This document shows positions 16,587 through 39,183 of a stretch of DNA of 56,836 nucleotides, piece by piece. The translations under genes were made by a program, and so were the position numbers. Below the pieces are notes generated by a model. That model saw nothing but the letters and a program-made list of their open reading frames with translations, did no database searches and was not told the DNA's origin. The stretch's first letter is position 1. Each line of letters opens with the position of its first letter. The stretch comes from Planctomyces sp. SH-PL62 (GTDB taxonomy: Bacteria; Planctomycetota; Planctomycetia; Planctomycetales; Planctomycetaceae): NCBI GenBank assembly GCA_945905295.1, contig CAMDPX010000013.1:1-56836 (forward strand), in the 5' to 3' direction.

Positions 16587-17555
16587 ATGCCTCGCATCGT
16601 TCGTCCGTGGTTGGGTTGGTCGTTGATGTTGTCACTGTCCGCTGTGGGGTTCTGCGGTTGTTCCTCAGAGGAACCGGCAGCGGCCCCCGCGGCCAACAAT
16701 CAGGCACAAGCGAATGCTCCCGCAATGGTGGGTGCAATGCCGCCCGGTATGCCGGGAGCACCCGGCGGAATGCCAGGCGCACCGGGTGGAATGCCAGGCG
16801 CACCGGGTGCGATGCCAGGCGCACTCGTCCCGCCGCCAGGCGCGGTTGCGGGAGCACCGGCGGTCGCGCCGGACGCAGCGGCTGCGTTCGCCGGAGCGCC
16901 CGGCGGTGCCGTCGTGGCTCCGGGAGCACTGGCGGTCGCACCAGCAGTCGCGCCGGACGCAGCGGCGGCATTCGCGGGAGCGCCCGGCGGTGCCGTCGTG
17001 GCTCCAGGAGCAGCAGCGGCCGCGCCGGCAGCACCCGGAGCAGCGGCCGCATTCGCGGGAGCACCAGGCGGTGCCGTCGTGGCTCCGGCAGCGCCAGCGG
17101 CCGCACCAGGCGCAGCGGCTGCGTTTGCGGGAGCACCAGGCGCAGTGGGTGCGGCACCGGGAGCTCCAGGGGCACCGGGAGCGGCCGGCGGTCCAGGTGG
17201 TGCTCAAAACCCGCAGTCGCAACCGGGAACATTCGGGTTCCCAGCCGAGAAAGTGGCGCTCACCCTGATGAGAGGCGACATCACCGGTTTGGAAGAATTC
17301 ATCAGCGCGAAGTGCAAGGGGCCACTCGGCGACGTTCGCGATGGCAAGGCGACGGAGAAGCAGATCGATGACCTCAAGAAGACGTTTACTGGCCTCAAGG
17401 AAGGGAGCAAGCCGCGAAATGAAGGTGGCACTTGGTCGCTCTCAGTTCGCAATGCCGACAACGCCCTCATCAGCTTCAAGGTCAAGAAGGAAGGCGAGGA
17501 CTACAAAGTCATCGAGATGACGGTCAAAGCGGGAACCGCCAAGAAAAATCGCTAA
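16587..17555 (+). CDS. Ala/Gly/Pro-rich low-complexity lipoprotein
   Basis: 322 residues from ATG 16587 (aggaga six bases upstream). The signal peptide ends VGFCGCSS, a likely lipobox region with acylated Cys. About residues 50-215 are low complexity: short GMPGAPG units, then longer units around AAAFAGAPGGAVVAPG repeated about five times. The underlying DNA (16740-17190) is tandemly repeated. The last 105 residues form an ordinary charged domain, FPAEKVALTLMRGDITGLEEF to the end, unrecognised. The design suggests a surface-anchored domain on a flexible stalk. Start and reading frame are well supported by the ordered C-terminus. Confidence 0.85.
   Translation: MPRIVRPWLGWSLMLSLSAVGFCGCSSEEPAAAPAANNQAQANAPAMVGAMPPGMPGAPGGMPGAPGGMPGAPGAMPGALVPPPGAVAGAPAVAPDAAAAFAGAPGGAVVAPGALAVAPAVAPDAAAAFAGAPGGAVVAPGAAAAAPAAPGAAAAFAGAPGGAVVAPAAPAAAPGAAAAFAGAPGAVGAAPGAPGAPGAAGGPGGAQNPQSQPGTFGFPAEKVALTLMRGDITGLEEFISAKCKGPLGDVRDGKATEKQIDDLKKTFTGLKEGSKPRNEGGTWSLSVRNADNALISFKVKKEGEDYKVIEMTVKAGTAKKNR
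16740..17190 (+). repeat. Coding tandem repeats (Ala/Gly/Pro units)
   Basis: First copies of ggaatgccaggcgcaccggg, then larger units containing ggcggtgccgtcgtggctcc at about 16903, 16987 and 17069. Copy number is likely variable between strains, as with other coding minisatellites. Confidence 0.8.
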
Positions 17556-30186: not shown

Positions 30187-33108
30187 TCAGACCGCAACCA
30201 ATTGGGTTTGAATCACCGTCACCGCCATGATGTCGAAGATGCCGCCGGTGTCTGTGTATTTGGGATCGGCCAATTCCTCGTAGCGGCCCCGGTGGTCGTA
30301 GGCAGTTTGAATCTCGCCGTTCACCTGCCCGCGATATGTGCCGTCCAGAAAAATGCGATCGTCGCGATGTGCGATGACTGTGGCGTGGATCGTGGGGTCG
30401 GCGGATTTTTCCTCGGTGACTTGTTTGATGTAGAGGGCTTCCTCGTCGGTGATGGCGAACTTGGCTCGAATCTCATCAATCATGTCTTGGACGGAGACTT
30501 TCTTTTGCGGCGGGCCAGCGCCTTTTTTGCCTTTGCCGGGTTTCAGTTTCACCGGCCCGGTGCTGGTCGTGACGCCCTGATATTCGACGGCGGCCTTGAT
30601 GACTTCCGTCTGTCGGATCTGTTTCATCAAGTCGGACACGCTGCCTTGCTTGATGAGTTGCGGGCCGACGTATTCGGCGAACGTCGCGAACTCGTTCAAC
30701 TCCGGCGCGTAGGTGAAAAAACACGACATGAAATGGAAAACCTTGGCGTATCGTGCGAGCGAATAGACGAACGCCTTGCTGTCTTCGGTCTCGGTAAAGC
30801 TGGCGAGAAATCGCGTGCGCAGCGCGTTGACGAAGAATTGCACTTGGGCGTCCGTGCCAGTCGTCGCAAGTCGCGTGAATTGGGCGGCATCATTTTGCGT
30901 GAAGACACCCGCAGCCAAGATTTCTGCGTAGAGCTTGAGGCAAAGCTCTTGGTCCGGTTCTTCCGGCACGAACGGCGTCCCTTTGCGGTATTTCTGAAAC
31001 GCCTTGAGGATGGCGGCGGCGTTGTTCGTGAAGTCCACGACCACGACACCCGACTTGCCGTCGTGGCAGCGGTTCAGCCGTGACACCGTTTGCACGGCGT
31101 TGCGGTCCACGACGGGCTTGTCGAGAAACATGCCGGCGAGCAACGGCTGATCGAAGCCGGTTTGGAATTTGTTGGCCACGACCATCAGCCGGTAGTCGTC
31201 CCCCTCGAAGCGTTCCTCGATCAACTCGCCGTCTTTCAACTCGTTGATGGCGTGCTCGTGAATTTCCGCGTTGGTTTCGGGATGCGTGAAATCCGAGAAG
31301 GCGTACAGGACTTTGTAACTCGCCCCGCGTTCTTTGAGCTTCTCTTTGATGATGTTGAAGTACCGCAAGCCGGCGACGCGGGAACTGGTGACGATCATCG
31401 CCTTGGCCCGGCCCTCAATGAGCGGCAGCACATCTTGCTCGAAGATGCGGAGCATCACCTCGGCCTTGTATTGAATGAGTCCGTCATCCTGAAATGCGAC
31501 GTTCATCAGCGTCTTGGCAACGACTCCTTTGGAATAGACCTTTTCTTCCTCGTCGGGCGGGGGAACGAAATGGCAATGCAGGTTGTAGAGCGTCTTGTAG
31601 GAAATGATGCTGGCGGCCACGTCCACGATGTAGCCTTCGGCGATGGCCTCGGCTTCGGTGTAGGTGTCGAACGCGGCGTTGAACAACGTGAGGGTCGCTG
31701 GCGCGGGCGTGGCGGTGAACGCGACGAACAACTGGTTGGCGTCGTGCTCGCGGATGACTTTGGCGAGCTGATCTTCGGGGTCTTGTTCCGGGGTGTCAGC
31801 GTCCGGTTCGTCCGCTTTGCGGAATGGCAGGCGGATCGCCGCGCCCATTTGGCCTTCTTGCGAGCGATGCGCTTCATCAATCAGGAACGCGACTCGCAGA
31901 TTCTTGAGGGCCGGGTTGCTCTTGAGTTCGTCCAACACGTGCGCAAACTTCTGCTGCGTGGTCACGATGATCGGCTTGCGATTGTTGAGGAAGCGAGGCA
32001 GGTCGTCGGAATGCTTCGCGATCCCCACTACGTCTTTCAAGTGGGTGAAATTCGCGATGTCCTCCCGGATGTTCGTGTCGAGCGATTTGCGGTCGGTGAG
32101 AATGAAGGTGATGTCCACCAGCTTTTCGCTCGTGCCGGGTTTGAAGAGGCTGTGCAGGCGGTCGGCGAGCCAGCAAATCGAGAGCGTCTTGCCGCTGCCG
32201 GGCGAGTGCTCCGCCAGATACTTGCGCCCGATGTTGCCGGTGGCGGCGAAGTGATCCGAAATGTCTGCCGAGACTTTCCGCACCAAGCGAGCCTGATGGT
32301 AGCGCGGGAAGATTGTGAACGCTGGACGTTGCGGCTTGTCGTCCTCCGCCTCGCGCTCGGGCACGCGGACCAGGAAGAATGACAACGCCTCCAACAACTG
32401 CTCCTTGGACAAGACTTCGCGGTAAAGAAACTCGACCGGATACTCGTTGGGATTTGTGGGTGTGTTGGTCAGCCCCATGTTGTGCCAACGAAAATTCTCT
32501 TCACGGCGCGGATTGGTGGCAGCCATCACGTCGGTCGTGTCGGCGGCGAGGTACAGGAACGGGTGCTGGAAAATCTTGCGCGCGTGGTCGCGGGCGGCGA
32601 ACTGCGCCACGGCGTCATGCACGTTCTGGTTCGCCTCGTGCTTCAACTCAAGCGCGACGATGGGCAGTCCATTGAGGAAGAAGACGAAATCAATCTCCTT
32701 GTTCGTCTCTCCAAAATAGAAGTGCGGGCGAAACGTAATGCGGTTTTCGGCGTGTTTCGTGGTCGCGGCGCTCTCTGCGGAACGGGGCTTGGGATAGAAC
32801 AGCCGGAACTCCAGCCCGCGCACCTTGAGGCCGTGACGCAGCAGCATCCACAGTGGCGTGTGCTCCAGTTCCTTGCGCAGCGCCTTGAAGACTTCGTCCC
32901 GCGCGTCCGTGCCGTAATCGTCTGTCAGCTTCTTGAGCGTGTCGGCTTGCGTGGCCTTGAGAAACGCCCAAAGGTGATCTTCGGCGATGCAATGCTCGGT
33001 GTCCGTGATGTCGGTCTGCTCAAGCACGCCGTACTTGTGCTCGCGGACGAGATAATCCGCGATGTGCTGCTGAAACGTCAGCTCCGGTGCTTTCTTTCGC
33101 TTGGCCAC
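30187..33108 (-). CDS. hsdR: Type I restriction enzyme, R subunit
   Basis: 973 residues from GTG 33108, with gaggaagg upstream, two bases after the preceding stop. The N-terminal nuclease has EIDFVFFLNGLPIVALELK (PD-ExK, near residue 150). The SF2 translocase follows: Walker A HSPGSGKT near 303, DEAH in LIDEAHRSQEGQM near 411, and the later helicase motifs MFLDKP and QTVSRLNR. HsdR cuts DNA after ATP-driven translocation when joined to HsdM and HsdS. It looks intact. The C-terminal 150 residues would contact HsdM/S. Its position after hsdS and the second DUF1016 gene is unusual only for the inserted genes. Confidence 0.96.
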   Translation of the reverse strand: MAKRKKAPELTFQQHIADYLVREHKYGVLEQTDITDTEHCIAEDHLWAFLKATQADTLKKLTDDYGTDARDEVFKALRKELEHTPLWMLLRHGLKVRGLEFRLFYPKPRSAESAATTKHAENRITFRPHFYFGETNKEIDFVFFLNGLPIVALELKHEANQNVHDAVAQFAARDHARKIFQHPFLYLAADTTDVMAATNPRREENFRWHNMGLTNTPTNPNEYPVEFLYREVLSKEQLLEALSFFLVRVPEREAEDDKPQRPAFTIFPRYHQARLVRKVSADISDHFAATGNIGRKYLAEHSPGSGKTLSICWLADRLHSLFKPGTSEKLVDITFILTDRKSLDTNIREDIANFTHLKDVVGIAKHSDDLPRFLNNRKPIIVTTQQKFAHVLDELKSNPALKNLRVAFLIDEAHRSQEGQMGAAIRLPFRKADEPDADTPEQDPEDQLAKVIREHDANQLFVAFTATPAPATLTLFNAAFDTYTEAEAIAEGYIVDVAASIISYKTLYNLHCHFVPPPDEEEKVYSKGVVAKTLMNVAFQDDGLIQYKAEVMLRIFEQDVLPLIEGRAKAMIVTSSRVAGLRYFNIIKEKLKERGASYKVLYAFSDFTHPETNAEIHEHAINELKDGELIEERFEGDDYRLMVVANKFQTGFDQPLLAGMFLDKPVVDRNAVQTVSRLNRCHDGKSGVVVVDFTNNAAAILKAFQKYRKGTPFVPEEPDQELCLKLYAEILAAGVFTQNDAAQFTRLATTGTDAQVQFFVNALRTRFLASFTETEDSKAFVYSLARYAKVFHFMSCFFTYAPELNEFATFAEYVGPQLIKQGSVSDLMKQIRQTEVIKAAVEYQGVTTSTGPVKLKPGKGKKGAGPPQKKVSVQDMIDEIRAKFAITDEEALYIKQVTEEKSADPTIHATVIAHRDDRIFLDGTYRGQVNGEIQTAYDHRGRYEELADPKYTDTGGIFDIMAVTVIQTQLVAV

Positions 33109-33110
33109 GG

Positions 33111-34184
33111 TCAGTCCTTCCTCGCTTCGAGCCGTGCCCGCGCGAGCCGCACCGCGTCATGCAGTTTGCGTTCGAGTTCTGCCTTGGGGAGCAAGTTCTT
33201 CAAATAGCTGGCGACATGAATGCCGCTCTTGTGAAGCTCCAGCAAAGCGACATGTTCGTCACTCTTGCCGGCGCACAGGATGATGCCCAGCGGCTCGGCC
33301 TCGCCCGGCTCGCACTCATGGCGTTTGAGCCAGCTCAGATAGAGTTCCATCTGCCCTTTGTCCGCAGCTTCAAATTCGCCGATCTTCAAGTCGATGGCCA
33401 CCAGCCGACGCAGCTTGCGGTGGTAGAACAGCAGATCGAGATGGTAGTCCCGATGATCAATCTGCATCCGCTTTTGACGTTCGACAAAACAGAAGCCGCC
33501 TCCCAACTCCAGGATGAAGGCTTCAATCTCACGCAAGACCGCCGCCTCGAAATCCTTCTCCGCGTAGGTGTCTTTCAGGCCGCAGAAGTCGAGGACGTAG
33601 GGGTCGCGAAAGACCAAGTCGGGAGTCAGCTTGTCTTCCTCGCGGAGTTGTTTGAGTTCCTGGCGGATGAGTTTGTCCGGCTTCTTGGAAATCGCGGTGC
33701 GCTCGAAGAGCATCGACTGAATCTTCTGGTGGAGCGTCCGCGTGTTCCAATTTTCAATGCGGCACATCTCAGCATAAAAGTCGCGTTTCAACGGGTCGTC
33801 GATTGGAATGAGCGTCTTGAAATGGGTCCAACCCAATTGTCGCCGCAGTGCGGCGACAATCTCCTGATCGGGGAAGACCTCGGCGAATTGGACCATCCGC
33901 CGCAGATTTTTCTCAGAAAACCCGCGCCCGAATTCCACTTCCAATTGTGTCCCCAGTGCGGACACAATCTTCTGTCCGTACTCCGCCCGCTTCTCTTTCA
34001 GGATGTCCTGCCGGATGCGCCGTCCGACATGCCAGTAAAGCGTCGCCAGCCCCGAGTTGATGGCTCTCGCGACACTTTCGCGAGCTTGCAGGATCAGTTC
34101 CCGTACGTCCGACAGCAGAGAGGCCGGATTGGTGGGGCGGGCCAGCGCGGTGTCGCGTTTTTTGGGCGGCGATTTACGATTCAT
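33111..34184 (-). CDS. DUF1016/PDDEXK nuclease family protein (YhcG-like), intact copy
   Basis: 357 residues from ATG 34184 (MNRKSPPKKRDT); the frame is open to 34265 through another palindrome. The N-terminal DUF1016 helical domain (LILQARESVARAINSGLATLYWHVGRRI, FSEKNLRRMVQFAEVFPD) is followed by a PDDEXK nuclease-like domain (YHLDLLFYHRKLRRLVAIDLKIG near residue 258). The family is common inside type I restriction operons and in defence islands. Two palindromes in the coding strand (33836-33860, 33944-33968) encode IVSALGTQL and IVAALRRQL around the helix junction. It overlaps neither neighbour and is close to hsdR. Confidence 0.9.
   Translation of the reverse strand: MNRKSPPKKRDTALARPTNPASLLSDVRELILQARESVARAINSGLATLYWHVGRRIRQDILKEKRAEYGQKIVSALGTQLEVEFGRGFSEKNLRRMVQFAEVFPDQEIVAALRRQLGWTHFKTLIPIDDPLKRDFYAEMCRIENWNTRTLHQKIQSMLFERTAISKKPDKLIRQELKQLREEDKLTPDLVFRDPYVLDFCGLKDTYAEKDFEAAVLREIEAFILELGGGFCFVERQKRMQIDHRDYHLDLLFYHRKLRRLVAIDLKIGEFEAADKGQMELYLSWLKRHECEPGEAEPLGIILCAGKSDEHVALLELHKSGIHVASYLKNLLPKAELERKLHDAVRLARARLEARKD
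33836..33860. repeat. Coding palindrome in the DUF1016 gene
   Basis: attgtcgccgc / gcggcgacaat around agt: perfect 11-bp arms, encoding IVAALRRQL on the minus strand. The same unit recurs at 34241-34267. Confidence 0.9.
33944..33968. repeat. Coding palindrome in the DUF1016 gene
   Basis: attgtgtccc / gtccgcact-type arms: attgtgtcc pairs with ggacacaat around ccagtgc. It encodes IVSALGTQL and is a diverged copy of the 33836 unit. Confidence 0.85.
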
Positions 34185-34240
34185 GCTGGCAAAATCCTCA
34201 CGATGTGCGGTGGCCGTACCCATCATAAACCATCCGTCGG

Positions 34241-34267
34241 AATTGTCGCCGCAGTGCGGCGACAATT
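34241..34267. repeat. Palindrome upstream of the DUF1016 gene
   Basis: aattgtcgccgc / gcggcgacaatt around agt, the same unit as 33836-33860, but located before the chosen start, in the hsdS-DUF1016 spacer. Confidence 0.9.
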
Positions 34268-34449
34268 CGGCGCGTCGCCTCCCACCAGCCGATCAAGCGG
34301 ATCATGGGGATGAGTCGTTTGAGGCGTTTGTGAGTCGTTTTGTACGGGCGAATGTCCCATAAACGTCCCATTCCTGGCGGAAGCCGTCGGCACGGGAGAA
34401 CCTGGTCCCACGGACGCGGACTTGCGGGGAGTTCTCGCGGGTTTGACGC

Positions 34450-35811
34450 TCATGCTCCCGGACTCCGATTCTGTGCCCGATTCAAGTCCGCCTCCGTCAC
34501 CCGCCGCTGGCCGGTGACGCACTCGTGAATCAGCGACTTGCGGTAGGCGGTCAGCGTGGCGATTTGCGATTCGATGCCGGTGACGATGGATTTGACTTCG
34601 CTGAGTTTCGCGTCGAGGTGTGCGCAGATGGCAACCTGCTCGTCGCGCTGTGGCAGTGGAATCGGGAACTCGCCGACTTTTGTTCCGTTCGTGCAAGCGA
34701 GGTTTGTCGTCCGCTTGCCGGTCGCTTCAAAGTAATCGCGGCCGTATCGAGACGCGGTCACATAGGTCAGGAATTTTGGAAGCAGCTTGTGGCAGAAACA
34801 GCGCACGGCGAAGACATGGTTTTGATGCAAGCATCCTTCGATTTCGCCGTGCCACAAGTAGCCGCGTCCGAGCTTGTCCAAGTCTCCGCCTTCGGTCATG
34901 AGCACGTCGCCTGAGCGGAGTTCGACACGCGCCGCTACCGCCGCCGGAACCTCGATCAGAGTCACGTCGTCCAGATCAAGATGACCGTCCTGCACGTTGG
35001 CGACGCGCAAGTAGGGGCGTTCAATCAGCGGGCCTTCGTAGGTCTTGCCGAGCGTCAGGCCGGTTTGAATCTCCGCGATGCGTTTGAGACACACCAGACT
35101 CCATCCGCGCGGCACGCTTTCCATCCAGCTATTTCCGGTGTCTTGCAGTTCGACGTGCTCGGTCAGTCCTCGCGTCACGGCACGTTGGACAATGGCCTTG
35201 CGAAGTTCGTCGAGGGTTTCGAGTTGGCGGCGTTTGGCGGCCACCGCCGCGTCAATCGCCGCACAACTCGCATCCAGATACGCCGCGATCCGCTGTTGCT
35301 CTTCGCGCGGCGGTTGGAGAACAGGCAAATAGCCAGTCTTCACTTGGTCGAGAATCGGTAGCGTTGTCGCAGAGGCAATGCCGGGAATCACATCCTCGTA
35401 AATCTTGAACTGGTAGGCGAGATAGCGGCCGCTCAATCGTTGGTTGCAGGTGATGCCGATGATTTGCTGGTTACACGACGCCACCTCGGTAATGAGACCG
35501 ACCTTGCCAATAGTCGCGCCAATGCCGACGAGGAACACCGTCGCGGCGGAGAACATGCGGAGCGTGCCGTCGCGTCTCGCAGCTTCGTTGATGAGCTTAC
35601 GAGGCTCGCGCAGTTCGAGGTCGCCGTCGTAGCTGCTCGGTGTGAACCAGGCGATAGTTCCGTCAAAGTAATAGTCGGGAGTGTCTGTCGGCGGAGTCGT
35701 GCCAGACTGGATACGCGCGGCAAATCGCTTGAGGTGCTCACAGCGCCAGTGCAGCGGAATCTCGCCAAACCAATCCAGGCCGGAACTCTTCTTGTCGGGA
35801 TAGGAGTTCAT
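34450..35811 (-). CDS. hsdS: Type I restriction-modification specificity subunit
   Basis: 453 residues from ATG 35811 (MNSYPDKKSSGLDWFGEIP). It has two target-recognition domains: first LKRFAARIQSGTTPPTDTPDY to TGYLPVLQPP, second LKRIAEIQTGLTLGKTYEG to GEFPIPLPQRDEQ. Each is followed by a helical spacer (IAAYLDASCAAIDAAVAAKRRQLETLDELRKAIVQ and ICAHLDAKLSEVKSIVTGI). It sets the DNA sequence methylated and cut. ATG 35811 overlaps by one base the stop of the duplicated hsdM tail (TGATG). An alternative start 32 codons earlier exists but would be antiparallel in frame to that tail. Intact. Confidence 0.95.
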   Translation of the reverse strand: MNSYPDKKSSGLDWFGEIPLHWRCEHLKRFAARIQSGTTPPTDTPDYYFDGTIAWFTPSSYDGDLELREPRKLINEAARRDGTLRMFSAATVFLVGIGATIGKVGLITEVASCNQQIIGITCNQRLSGRYLAYQFKIYEDVIPGIASATTLPILDQVKTGYLPVLQPPREEQQRIAAYLDASCAAIDAAVAAKRRQLETLDELRKAIVQRAVTRGLTEHVELQDTGNSWMESVPRGWSLVCLKRIAEIQTGLTLGKTYEGPLIERPYLRVANVQDGHLDLDDVTLIEVPAAVAARVELRSGDVLMTEGGDLDKLGRGYLWHGEIEGCLHQNHVFAVRCFCHKLLPKFLTYVTASRYGRDYFEATGKRTTNLACTNGTKVGEFPIPLPQRDEQVAICAHLDAKLSEVKSIVTGIESQIATLTAYRKSLIHECVTGQRRVTEADLNRAQNRSPGA

Positions 35812-35903
35812 CACGTCGCAGCCAGCCTTTCCAACATCGTCTCCGCGTCCTTCTCCAACTTTCGGAACTCGGCCAACAGGTCGTTTGATGTCGTGGTCGG
35901 CAT
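35811..35903 (-). pseudogene. Duplicated hsdM 3' tail used as a leader ORF before hsdS
   Basis: 30-codon open frame, ATG 35903, encoding MPTTTS then DLLAEFRKLEKDAETML and ERLAAT. The true hsdM ends PTPAK then DLLAEFWKLEKEAEKML. The DNA also matches. It starts directly after the DUF1016 stop (TGAATG), and its own stop overlaps hsdS ATG. So the DUF1016 gene lies between two copies of the hsdM tail. It may now serve only for translational coupling. Confidence 0.8.
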
Positions 35904-37192
35904 TCAATTCCCACTCTCCATTTCCGCCCGCAGGAGATTGGCGAGCTGTTTCGCGGAGGGGAGTTTGCCTTTCAGCTCACCGGGCAGTTTCGACTGCAAC
36001 TGATAGGCGGCGACGCCGATGGGGTTGGCTTTGGTGCGGAGCGCGTATTCCACCTCCACATCCTCCTTTTCCGCGCAGAGGATGATGCCGATCGAGGGCT
36101 TGTCGCCGGGGCCGCGTTCCTTGTCGTTGAGCAGGTTCAAATAGAAATCCATCTTGCCCGCGTGCTCCGGCTCGAAGGGGCCGACCTTGAGATCGAAGGC
36201 GACGAGTGCCTTGAGGAACCGGTGATAGAACAGGAGGTCGATGAAATACTCCTTCGCCCCCAGCTCGATGCGGTGTTGCCGCCCGACGAAGCAGAAGCCA
36301 TAGCCAAGCTCCAGCAGGAACGCTTGCAGGCGCGAGATCAGCCGGTCTTCGAGTTCACGCTCCCGCACGGCGCGGCGCAGGCCGAGGAACTCCAGGTTGT
36401 AGGAGCTTTTCAGCATCTCGTCGGCCTGCTCGGCGAAGTGCTCCGGCAACGCGAGATCGAAGTTGTGCGTCTTCTTTTCCGTGACGGCCCGCTCGTAAGC
36501 GCTGGCCTTGATCTGATTGAGCAACACATTTCGCGACCAGCCGAAACGGGCGGTGGCCTGGAAATACCAGATGCAGGCAGCGGGGTCCGTGAGCTTGTCG
36601 AGCATCATCATGTGATGTCCCAGGGAATTTCTGCAACAAGCTGCTGCAGAAATTGGCCAGGGCCGCCCTCACTCATTTTGGCCACAGATTGTGGCCAAAT
36701 TATGACTCTTTCTAATTCTGCAGCAGGTTGCTGCAGAATTACCGACGGGGCGTCGCCTGCTTCCAATTTGGCGACAGGCTGTCGACGTTTCTTGTCTCCG
36801 GCCAATTCTGCGACAGCCTGTCGCAGAATTGGGCTCGCCCCGCGCTGACTCATTTCTCGCGCAGCTTGTGCCAGAAATTCAGGAGCCGAATAGGCTTCGT
36901 AGAGACGCCGCATATACCACACATTGCGCGGGGAGAATCCGCGCATGGATGGGAACGCCCGGCGCAGGTCTGCCGCAACCAGTTCCACGACAGATTCACC
37001 CCAGCCAAGCGCCCGCTGCTTCTCAACAATCCCGCGCCCGATGTCCCAATACAGGAAGATCATTTCGTGATTGACCCGCCGTGCCACGGAGAGACGAGCG
37101 GTGGCGACGCGAGCCTTCAGTTCCTCGACAAACTGCCGATAGTCGGCGCTGATGGCCAGCGCAGTGTCGGTCGTCTTTTTCATCTTTTTCAT
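35904..37192 (-). pseudogene. DUF1016/PDDEXK family gene split by a one-base frameshift
   Basis: Two open frames make one gene. 37192-36608 (ATG overlapping hsdM stop as ATGA, MKKMKKTTDTALAIS) gives the DUF1016 domain; 36611-35904 (MMMLDKLTDPAACIWYFQA) gives the junction and PDDEXK domain (YFIDLLFYHRFLKALVAFDLKVG). The first ends AEIPWDIT where the family reads IPWGHH; restoring one G in tggg at about 36619 fuses the frames through GHHMMMLDKL. The stop and restart overlap (catgatgatg), so two coupled polypeptides are also possible. Residues about 115-190 contain six palindrome-encoded repeats. A sequencing error is not excluded. Confidence 0.85.
36626..36878. repeat. Cluster of six coding palindromes inside a DUF1016 gene
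   Basis: Units at 36626-36654, 36675-36700, 36713-36741, 36764-36787 (imperfect), 36802-36832 and 36852-36878 (imperfect). Spacing alternates between about 38 and 50 bases. Typical unit: aattctgcgacag / ctgtcgcagaatt. On the minus strand they encode FLAQAAREM, ILRQAVAEL, RRQPVAKL, ILQQPAAEL, IWPQSVAKM and FLQQLVAEI. Confidence 0.9.
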
Positions 37193-39183
37193 TTCGCCAG
37201 TCCCTCCAACATTTTCTCCGCCTCTTTCTCCAGCTTCCAAAACTCCGCGAGCAAATCTTTCGCGGGCGTGGGTGGCTGGTAACGGTAGAAATATTTGTTC
37301 GGCAGGAATTCGTAGCCGTGTTGCGGGCTGTCCTCCCAGCGGATGATCGGCTTGGCAATCTCTCGTTGCAGGAACGCCTCGATGTCCTCGCCGTGCGGAA
37401 TGTATTCGTCGTCCGCGACGTAATGCCGGTGCGTCCATTCGACGGAGAGAATTTCCGGCCGGTCGCCCAGCGCGGCTTTGAACTTCTTCGCGGCGTTGTC
37501 CTTGGGGGACACGACGAGGGTGATGGTCTTCTCGCCGCTCTCCGCTTTCACGCGCACGCGGAAGGTCAGGTCACTGTCGTAAAACTCCTGCTCCTTCTTC
37601 ACGTTCGCGGCGGTGAATGCCTTCTCGTAAGGCTCGGTGAGCATGGCCGGCTTGTCTTGCTCGTCGGATTGCCAGAACACGACGCTGACCTTGTGGTAAG
37701 CGAAGTCCTTTTCCTTGGCGTTGTTTTTGAAAATCTTGACGCACACATCGGCGTAGCCTTTGGCCCAGCCGTCGCGGTAACGCTGCTCGATCCATTCGCG
37801 GTGCGCGTCGGTCATGCGGTTGCGTTTGCTGGCGAAGGCTTTTGGCTCTTTCTCGAATTGCTTCCGCGCGTCAATCAGCATCACGCGCCCGCGATGACTG
37901 GCGGGCTTTTCGTTCCGCAGCAGCCAAATGTAGGTAAAGATGCCGGTGTTGTAGAACAACTGGTCCGGCAGCATGACGATGGCATCGAGCCAGTCGTGCT
38001 CCAGAATCCAACGGCGGATTTCGCTCTCGCCGGAACCGCAATCACCATTGGAGAGCGGCGAGCCGTTGAAGATGACCGCGATGCGGCTGCCACCCTCTTC
38101 GGCCGGGATCATCTTGCCCAGCATGGTTTGCAGGAACAGCATCGCGCCATCATTCACGCGCGGCATCCCAGCCTGATAACGGGTCGTCTCCAGTTGGCGT
38201 GCCTCGGTTTCGTATCCATCTTTGCCGCCCCAAGTGACGCCAAACGGCGGGTTGCTCAACATGCGGTTGAAGCGGTGCTTCGGCTCTGGCCACTGGTCGC
38301 CCGGATCGCGGCTTTGCGGATCGTGTTTGATTAACGAGTTGCCGAGAGTGATTTTGACCTGTTGGTCGTTCTTGATCAGTAGGTCCGCCTGACAGACGGC
38401 ATAGTTCGTCGGCGACAACTCCTGTCCGTGGACGGTCAGGAACTTTTCGACGCGCTCCCGTTCCGCCGGAGTGGCGGCTCGGTCCAGCAAATGTTCTTTC
38501 GCCACGGACAACATGCCGCCCGTGCCGGCCGCCGGGTCGTAAATGGAGAAGTGCCGATCGGGAATCGGAATCTCCAACAACTCGACCATCAAGCGGATGA
38601 CTTCGCGCGGCGTGAAGTGATCTCCAGCCTCTTCGCCGCTTTGTTCCGAGAATCGCCGGAGCAACTCTTCGTAGATGTAACCCATCTCCAGCCCAGAGAG
38701 TTGGTCCGGGCCAAGCGCGAGTTCTTTGTATTGATTCAGGATCGGGGAGAGCCGGTTGTTCTTCACCATCGTTCCGATGGTGGCCCGATAATTGAAGTGC
38801 TCAATGATGTCGTCAACATTCTTCGAGAAGCCGTTCACATAGTCGCGAAAGTTATCCGCCAAGAGCGTGGGGTCTTCCTCATAAACCTTGCGCAGCGTCC
38901 AGTCGGTCTTGTTGGAGAACGGCGACTGCTTGGGATTCAGTTCCAATTCCTTGACCAGCTTCGCAAGTTCCTTCTCGGTGAGCTTGGGGCGATCAGCCAG
39001 AACCTTGGCCCGCTTCGCCTCACGCCACGCCAAGAGCACACACTCCAACCGTCGAATGACGATGATCGGCAGGATGACGCCCTGATACTCGTAGGGCTTG
39101 TACTTGCCGCGCAACCGCTCGGCAGATTTCCAAATGTCGCCAGCAAGGTTGTCGAGCTTGGGTTTGTTAAGGGAAAGGCTCAT
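37189..39183 (-). CDS. hsdM: Type I restriction-modification methyltransferase subunit
   Basis: 664 residues; ATG 39183 with aggacaccg upstream. N-terminal helical HsdM_N domain (LDNLAGDIWKSAERLRG), then an adenine methyltransferase with the SAM-binding motif DPAAGTGGM near residue 218 and the catalytic NPPFG near 314. An additional about 150-residue C-terminal part ends in a coiled-coil helix (DLLAEFWKLEKEAEKML). It modifies adenine together with HsdS. The stop overlaps the first DUF1016 start (ATGA), so the operon begins here. The last about 75 bases are repeated before hsdS. Confidence 0.96.
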   Translation of the reverse strand: MSLSLNKPKLDNLAGDIWKSAERLRGKYKPYEYQGVILPIIVIRRLECVLLAWREAKRAKVLADRPKLTEKELAKLVKELELNPKQSPFSNKTDWTLRKVYEEDPTLLADNFRDYVNGFSKNVDDIIEHFNYRATIGTMVKNNRLSPILNQYKELALGPDQLSGLEMGYIYEELLRRFSEQSGEEAGDHFTPREVIRLMVELLEIPIPDRHFSIYDPAAGTGGMLSVAKEHLLDRAATPAERERVEKFLTVHGQELSPTNYAVCQADLLIKNDQQVKITLGNSLIKHDPQSRDPGDQWPEPKHRFNRMLSNPPFGVTWGGKDGYETEARQLETTRYQAGMPRVNDGAMLFLQTMLGKMIPAEEGGSRIAVIFNGSPLSNGDCGSGESEIRRWILEHDWLDAIVMLPDQLFYNTGIFTYIWLLRNEKPASHRGRVMLIDARKQFEKEPKAFASKRNRMTDAHREWIEQRYRDGWAKGYADVCVKIFKNNAKEKDFAYHKVSVVFWQSDEQDKPAMLTEPYEKAFTAANVKKEQEFYDSDLTFRVRVKAESGEKTITLVVSPKDNAAKKFKAALGDRPEILSVEWTHRHYVADDEYIPHGEDIEAFLQREIAKPIIRWEDSPQHGYEFLPNKYFYRYQPPTPAKDLLAEFWKLEKEAEKMLEGLAK

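Follow-up and report, generated by a model that had tools for sequence, protein, structure and literature searches.

The DUF1016/YhcG gene appears to carry an address for its own product, with palindrome bases that change in step with the predicted DNA-reading helix

Introduction

Proteins of the DUF1016/YhcG family are found in many phyla and in most E. coli genomes, and they are uncharacterised; in the available part of its published description the family is a predicted nuclease, with no confident fold match for the N-terminal domain (PMC1189080). In the stretch of DNA analysed here (the window; 56,836 nucleotides of contig CAMDPX010000013.1 of Planctomyces sp. SH-PL62), one gene of this family contains six short palindromes within its coding sequence. 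What keeps palindromes in the reading frame of a putative nuclease? An earlier note on this sequence proposed a DNA-level element and offered three roles for it: a self-target, a hairpin recombination site or a slippage hot spot. The analysis reported here suggests that the gene carries an address (a DNA site bound by its own product) and that the bases of the palindrome change in step with the helix that appears to read them.

Results

Two DUF1016 genes in a type I restriction-modification locus

The region 30187-39183 is a type I restriction-modification locus on the minus strand, with the gene order hsdM, DUF1016-a, hsdS, DUF1016-b, hsdR-like. The context genes hsdM (type I methylase, 37189-39183) and hsdS (specificity subunit, 34450-35907) were recognised by domain scan, and the hsdR-like gene (30187-33108) was named by eye from its translation. 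DUF1016-a is split over two open reading frames (36608-37438 and 35904-36611). Its N-terminal part (36608-37192; open frame, translation and domain scan), the probable start of which overlaps the hsdM stop, lies in a frame that stops just past the palindrome array, and its C-terminal part with the PD-(D/E)XK (YhcG_C) domain (35904-36611; domain scan) lies in the other frame. Both family domains are present, in two frames, with a second DUF1016_N piece scoring below the cut-off. The frame break at 36608-36611 is located directly past the array. The break may mark a pseudogene or stem from an error in assembly; the gene is a frame-broken family member with what would be an expanded address array. 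DUF1016-b (33111-34184, minus strand; domain scan, start picked by eye) has an unbroken frame, and its DUF1016_N and YhcG_C domains both score above the cut-off.

Elsewhere in the window, distant parts have inverted and direct repeats of ~30-50 bases in common (8572-8656/52199-52278; 1358-1406/56586-56634; 26-61/55497-55585), and 16746-17181 is an array of G+C-rich, probably coding tandem repeats that have a period near 84 as well as shorter units of 21 bases.

The palindrome arrays of the window

The six palindromes noticed earlier at 36626-36878 are real. Each unit spans ~27 bp, and the arms vary from unit to unit and stay self-complementary; by pairing count four units are good palindromes and two (at 36765 and 36852) are decayed. 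Unit 1 (36626-36654, 12/14 pairs), of the gene's own type with the outer triplet CTG, is nearest to the LxWxH motif. It is followed by unit 2 (36675-36701, 11/13 pairs), with the outer triplet TGG of a different specificity class, unit 3 (36714-36740, 12/13 pairs, CTG type), unit 4 (36765-36791, 8/13 pairs; one arm decayed, TGG type according to the intact arm, and a partner in an inverted repeat), the perfect unit 5 (36804-36830, 13/13 pairs, CTG type) and the partly decayed unit 6 (36852-36878, 10/13 pairs). Centre-to-centre distances are ~48, 39, 51, 39 and 48 bases, in agreement with the alternation of about 38 and 50 bases read from the sequence before, and the units do code for nine-residue repeats, on the minus strand, as their translation confirms. 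The array had also been placed at the hinge between the DUF1016 and PDDEXK domains; this placement was wrong, the array lying inside Pfam DUF1016_N, whose profile positions 1-93 match before it and 100-137 after it.

The predicted ParB-type recognition helix of DUF1016-a, GFSPRNVWYM (R86, W89), is encoded at 36911-36940 on the minus strand (translation; register from alignment). With these residues the gene has CTG units, as do relatives with R and W, plus the TGG units of another class.

DUF1016-b, with the predicted helix GFSEKNLRRM (K86, R89; 33894-33923, minus strand, register as for DUF1016-a), carries a palindrome at the place equivalent to the DUF1016-a array and of different sequence (33835-33861, the canonical place; outer triplet GTC, 12/13 pairs). 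An identical extra copy lies just 5' of the gene start (34241-34267, 13/13 pairs) and overlaps a promoter-like site (34249-34222); two such sites were found in the region against 1.7 expected, which is within chance. A second in-gene palindrome (33943-33969, 11/13 pairs) is located 5' of the recognition helix. Its outer triplet, GTG, would by the recognition code described below suit another helix than that of DUF1016-b.

Palindromy is a property of the family and exceeds the demand of the peptide

The palindromes were compared with synonymous-codon shuffles, taking the best palindrome in the 82 codons that end at LxWxH and, as a control, an equal stretch of the nuclease domain. The first set comprised the own genome and its relatives, named genomes (the best 80 of at least 582) and 47 loci from viral contigs; its 143 frames gave 119 distinct genes with the hinge motif once frames without a hinge, duplicates and frames that were too short had been dropped. 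The mean palindrome score was 10.75 against 5.75 after shuffling, with p<0.01 in 91/119 genes; the control stretch scored 5.66 against 5.58 (p<0.01 in 1/119). A second set of 60 new loci (58 frames, 44 used) repeated the result, with 35/44 genes at p<0.01 and 0/44 in the control. In total, 126 of the 163 genes, from many phyla, show palindromy before LxWxH at this level, compared with 1/163 control stretches, and 37/163 do not. Randomised synonymous codons, proposed before as a check, did not reach equal palindromy, and chance or a codon effect is ruled out as the source of the palindromes. Homologues with the same type of peptide and weak palindromy, which would have told against a DNA-level element, exist (L090, L113, L118 and L128, p 0.07-0.25) but are a minority.

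With a looser threshold, 248 units were found in 156/168 genes, compared with 30 in equal downstream stretches, and 95 of these 156 genes have a single unit. The unit centre is exactly 12 bases 5' of the hinge codon in many genes and displaced elsewhere; the codon phase is usually kept (219 of the 243 units with an assigned phase). When units of the same gene were compared, 423 position pairs were paired but different, 244 were broken and 713 identical. At synonymous third positions the pairing base is present at 1337/1388 sites, in units that were preselected for pairing. The codon shuffles, together with these synonymous-site pairings and the avoidance of G.T pairs (see below), bear out the proposal that the DNA stays palindromic to a degree that the peptide does not require; the DNA-level element is likewise upheld.

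The linker of one DUF1016 gene (L270) contains six units in the order CTC, CTC, CTC, CTG, CTG, CTG, as if recording a past change of specificity.

The sites are tied to DUF1016 genes

The whole 8.6 Mb source genome contains five sites of the own-type pattern with up to three mismatches, four of them in the array and one beside a DUF1016 remnant; the reversed pattern, used as a control, gave none. There are five DUF1016 places in this genome. The C137 gene has four palindromes of yet another sequence, and no palindrome was found in the C2 gene. In 33 other genomes the family consensus, again with up to three mismatches, was found at 36 sites in 22 genomes, compared with 2 for the reversed control. 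Thirty-one of the 36 sites are in or beside DUF1016 genes or remnants, an assignment made from the open frame, from site motifs, from inspection by eye in the case of some remnants, or from the locus having been fetched for its DUF1016 gene; three of the other five are in other genes (three mismatches each) and two have no DUF1016 frame at the site. A dispersed mobile palindrome, such as the Rickettsia palindromic element or a REP-like sequence, is rejected, with 5/5 own-genome sites and 31/36 of the others linked to DUF1016.

Copies outside the linker are rare: four were detected around the 185 genes with examined flanks, and only that of DUF1016-b is known just 5' of a start. An earlier scan outside open frames, made without a symmetry condition, gave two around 120 genes and none for the cores of other genes. 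Promoter-near copies as a general rule were rejected on the count of four around 185 genes. Given so few copies elsewhere, we treat the in-gene site as the functional one. Units located 5' of the recognition helix number 2 in 208 genes, compared with 1 in the equal-length control stretch, so the second in-gene palindrome of DUF1016-b is no family feature. Paralogues within one genome gave no support for selection towards differing addresses, in the part of the loci covered by a locus-to-genome list compiled by hand (1/33 pairs identical against 0.64 expected from between-genome pairs).

The N-terminal domain as the putative reader

AlphaFold models predict a helical N-terminal domain (mean pLDDT 78.2 and 77.4; pTM 0.57 and 0.43), in which the part before the helix-turn-helix consists of two long helices. 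The VIA matches of this domain are the DNA-binding domains of ParB and Noc (e.g., 7bnk, rmsd 2.3 over 96 residues, Z 7.3; 7ol9, Z 7.7), with Z of 6.9-7.7, a range that a common helical arrangement can give. The HTH_ParB profile matches weakly in 8/55 members (best E 1.2e-4), and hhalign against a ParB alignment gave E 0.0036 with a probability of only 9 per cent, aligning S-R-x-N-L-x-Y-M with the recognition helix of ParB and LPWGHN with its segment LTQGHA/ITQGHA. Sequence searches for a solved relative gave none (best E 0.33, unrelated), no Foldseek match reached E 0.001, and NCBIfam had no family for the three proteins scanned. These models and alignments give modest support for a resemblance of the N-terminal domain to the ParB/Noc helix-turn-helix. 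In the available part of the report on Caulobacter ParB, helix alpha4 enters the major groove, where R173 touches a guanine, and G170, S172 and N178 also touch parS (PMC7383237). The putative recognition helix of DUF1016 proteins is encoded 5' of the palindrome. In the nuclease domain, D239 and K256 are invariant and E215 is nearly so among 55 sequences.

Palindrome bases covary with the predicted recognition helix

Residue numbers (86, 89, 90) follow L103, and base offsets count from the dyad. In 133 genes, differences in the outer arms of the palindrome (offsets 7-9) track distances in helix 82-99 with a partial r of 0.277, taken after removing all other regions; none of 500 permutations, which ignore descent, was as high. 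For the other regions the partial r with the outer arms is -0.07 to 0.07 (C-terminal domain -0.01), and this contrast weighs more than the permutation figure, because the permutation does not preserve descent. The palindrome core (offsets 2-6) tracks overall descent rather than the helix, with a partial r of 0.04 for helix 82-99, 0.163 for the preceding helix and 0.382 for the C-terminal domain.

At single positions, among 132 genes, G7 is found in 76/78 with R86 and in 4/54 of the others; on a tree of the nuclease domain R86 changes 23 times and G7 26 times, and the two change on the same branch 19 times (2.3 expected). An acidic residue 89 goes with C8 in 8/8 genes against 4/124, with seven changes of the residue, eleven of the base and seven on the same branch (0.3 expected). 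R90 goes with C5 (28/35 against 7/97; ten changes on the same branch, 0.9 expected). The control pairings R86-C5, R90-G7 and residue 129-G7 are at expectation. The remaining position-89 links (K, G) have a weaker signal on the tree, with p about 0.01, and that of R89 with G8 is weak in this first set (8/18 against 20/114, p 0.025).

For validation the rules were fixed beforehand and applied to 100 new loci. These yielded 74 genes. No helix was recognised in 15 of them, and 20 of the other 59 lacked a good unit, which leaves 39. R86-G7 held in 18/18 against 3/21, acidic 89-C8 in 5/5 against 2/34 and R90-C5 in 3/3 against 0/36; Y90-A5 was weak (p 0.098), and the controls were null.

The first and new genes were then pooled (238 genes, 30 dropped for want of a recognised helix). 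R86-G7 held in 55/55 against 0/46 for canonical units and in 49/56 against 5/30 for units displaced by 9-255 nt. In multi-unit arrays, 88/108 units fit their own helix and 20/108 do not, under a rule that asks for G7 with R86 and, with any other residue, merely for its absence; all 43 multi-unit genes examined contain at least one fitting unit.

E. coli yhcG

Of 5426 complete E. coli genomes, 4417 have a yhcG match, which extends over at least 80 per cent of the gene in 3310, and none is on a plasmid. The nine full-length alleles compared have one to three units each; both the number of units and the length of the linker vary, the latter as the earlier note had proposed. The K-12 gene contains three units of the same kind of palindrome. 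With the K-12 type helix, GFSAKNLRQM (K86), the first unit has C at offset 7, and with the second type, GFSTRNLWQF (R86), it has G. In K-12, unit 1 has lost a pair, and neither unit 2 nor unit 3 fits the helix of the gene. In L220, an allele of the second type, unit 2 carries CGC, the outer triplet of the first unit of the common type. Two IS-truncated alleles (L212, about 6406; L213, about 6001) end within unit 3, at query positions 406 and 385, compared with 235 and 1060 for other truncations.

Discussion

There is strong support for selection of the site as DNA, for its two-fold symmetry, for its link to DUF1016 genes and for covariation of its bases with residues 86, 89 and 90 of the helix that aligns with the ParB/Noc recognition helix. 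Very probably, judging from these sequence patterns, the palindrome is the binding site of the gene's own product inside its own gene, and we are fairly confident of the whole reading, in which the DUF1016/YhcG gene carries the address of its protein. Among the roles offered at the outset the self-target fits best, because the palindrome covaries with the putative DNA-reading helix encoded by its own gene; hairpin recombination or slippage as the primary role is unsupported, as neither predicts such protein-DNA covariation. What stands of the initial interpretation is thus the DNA-level element, the self-target and the variable number of units, and what falls is the hinge location along with that primary role.

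Two ParB-like helix-turn-helix subunits would each bind one arm with their N-terminal domains. Binding in the middle of the gene could act in cis and hold down its own expression, a negative feedback of the roadblock type that would restrain the nuclease. Extra units might raise the occupancy, or they may survive from earlier specificities. As reader and address share one frame, at a distance of only tens to a few hundred bases, they would be inherited together and could shift their specificity together. Self-restraint by mid-gene binding is in our estimation quite possible, if short of probable. The one point that speaks for it specifically is the identical extra copy that overlaps the promoter-like site 5' of DUF1016-b; autorepression stays a proposal because promoter-near copies are rare and the promoter-like site is within chance.

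For the effect of binding we place self-restraint before self-directed cutting or recombination, which is rather unlikely, and an origin-like role last. In the case of cutting, the PD-(D/E)XK domain would cut or nick at or near the address, in its own gene or in other copies, and would thereby drive allele exchange, changes in unit number or the exclusion of rivals with the same address. The conserved nuclease residues (D239, K256, E215), the changing unit numbers and mixed-specificity arrays, the gene remnants with palindromes and the two IS-truncated E. coli alleles ending in unit 3 all agree with this, as does the match of the family to the PADLOC models PDC-S02, a name that we take to denote a candidate defence system. 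A yhcG deletion is, moreover, synthetic-lethal with dnaB, dnaN and parE alleles, according to the available part of the report (PMC2672614). However, the IS ends may be due to chance, given the other truncations at 235 and 1060, and routine cutting of the own gene should favour loss of the site; its retention in most tested genes makes routine self-cutting less likely and suggests that the site does something the gene requires. A broader version of the idea makes these proteins self-addressed nucleases, for which the address would serve in finding, cutting or silencing copies of that gene; they would be allele-specific selfish or defence elements whose specificity diversifies by matched changes of helix and palindrome, with a code readable from sequence; we regard this as conceivable and, on balance, doubtful.

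Alternatively, the protein might gather on the repeats in its own gene to start replication or mobilisation, by analogy with lambda O, which has four annotated iterons in its own reading frame. DUF1016 genes are indeed known from mobile elements (PMC4316617, available part). Against such origin-like assembly, yhcG is chromosomal in E. coli (none on plasmids in 5426 genomes), a single unit is enough in many genes (95/156) and no replication gene partner was noticed beside the gene in the window; we consider it improbable.

Less likely still is a contact within the protein, in which the recognition helix would touch the palindrome-coded peptide and the covariation would arise without DNA reading. 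At the canonical place this peptide does directly follow the helix in the models. But the code holds for units displaced by 9-255 nt, and synonymous positions too are constrained to pair. Since displaced units cannot make the contact available to the canonical peptide, reading of the DNA is the simpler cause. We give even less credence to upkeep of the palindrome without selection, by template switching, or to its arrival as a mobile palindromic insertion of the Rickettsia type: the arms do change and remain complementary, as both would have it, but neither predicts base-specific covariation with helix residues coded elsewhere in the gene, and the units are not dispersed in the genomes searched, which tells against insertion. 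An RNA hairpin in the messenger, serving translation control or RNase processing, is the least credible explanation and was rejected, since, for all the stem-loop-like look of self-complementary arms around a loose centre, G.T pairs are avoided like A.C pairs (18 against 305.6 expected and 33 against 361.2, ratios 0.059 and 0.091, the preselection of units for pairing affecting both alike), the bases covary with a DNA-binding helix and there is no Rfam match at the gathering score.

For an uncharacterised family present in most E. coli genomes, the finding offers a specific, testable DNA target and a likely reader domain, together with a partial code (R86/G7, acidic 89/C8, R90/C5), and E. coli K-12 would allow all of these to be tested at once. 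Should binding be confirmed, the DUF1016 gene would be an unusual case of a recognition helix and its target co-evolving in one reading frame, and a natural record of changes in DNA-binding specificity.

Comparison with known systems

Both genes of the window carry the domains of the YhcG/DUF1016 family (Pfam PF17761 and PF06250; PADLOC PDC-S02), one of them in two frames. A palindrome and a ParB-like reader are not described in the available part of the family's publication (PMC1189080), and the literature searched, which included few subscription journals and no bioRxiv preprints, gave no report of a DUF1016/YhcG palindrome or ParB-like N-terminal domain.

ParB/parS and Noc/NBS have features that DUF1016 would share on the present reading: a helix-turn-helix in the same register, a palindromic target and readout of guanine by arginine (PMC7383237, available part). 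Unlike ParB and Noc, DUF1016 has a PD-(D/E)XK nuclease as the partner domain. Unlike parS, the DUF1016 site is ~27 bp long, changes in sequence and has its covarying bases 5-9 from the dyad; canonical parS (TGTTNCACGTGAAACA, no mismatch allowed) was present in none of the 409 fetched loci holding DUF1016 genes. Unlike both parS and NBS, 31/36 of the DUF1016 consensus sites are in or beside DUF1016 genes or their remnants. A parS site does lie inside B. subtilis spo0J itself (our literature search gave no match for it).

Lambda O, a replication initiator and not a nuclease, resembles the DUF1016 reading in having repeated sites inside the frame of their own binder, where for DUF1016 the binding is deduced from covariation only. 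The iterons of lambda O in its own gene (PMC6022878, available part) are directly repeated and, unlike the DUF1016 units, only weakly symmetric (2-4 of 9 pairs). The Rickettsia palindromic elements, finally, are like the DUF1016 units peptide-coding palindromes inside genes. They are about 100-150 nt long and insert in intergenic regions, RNA genes and coding sequences (PMC4316617, available part), in contrast to the DUF1016 units, which are 27 bp long and tied to one gene family.
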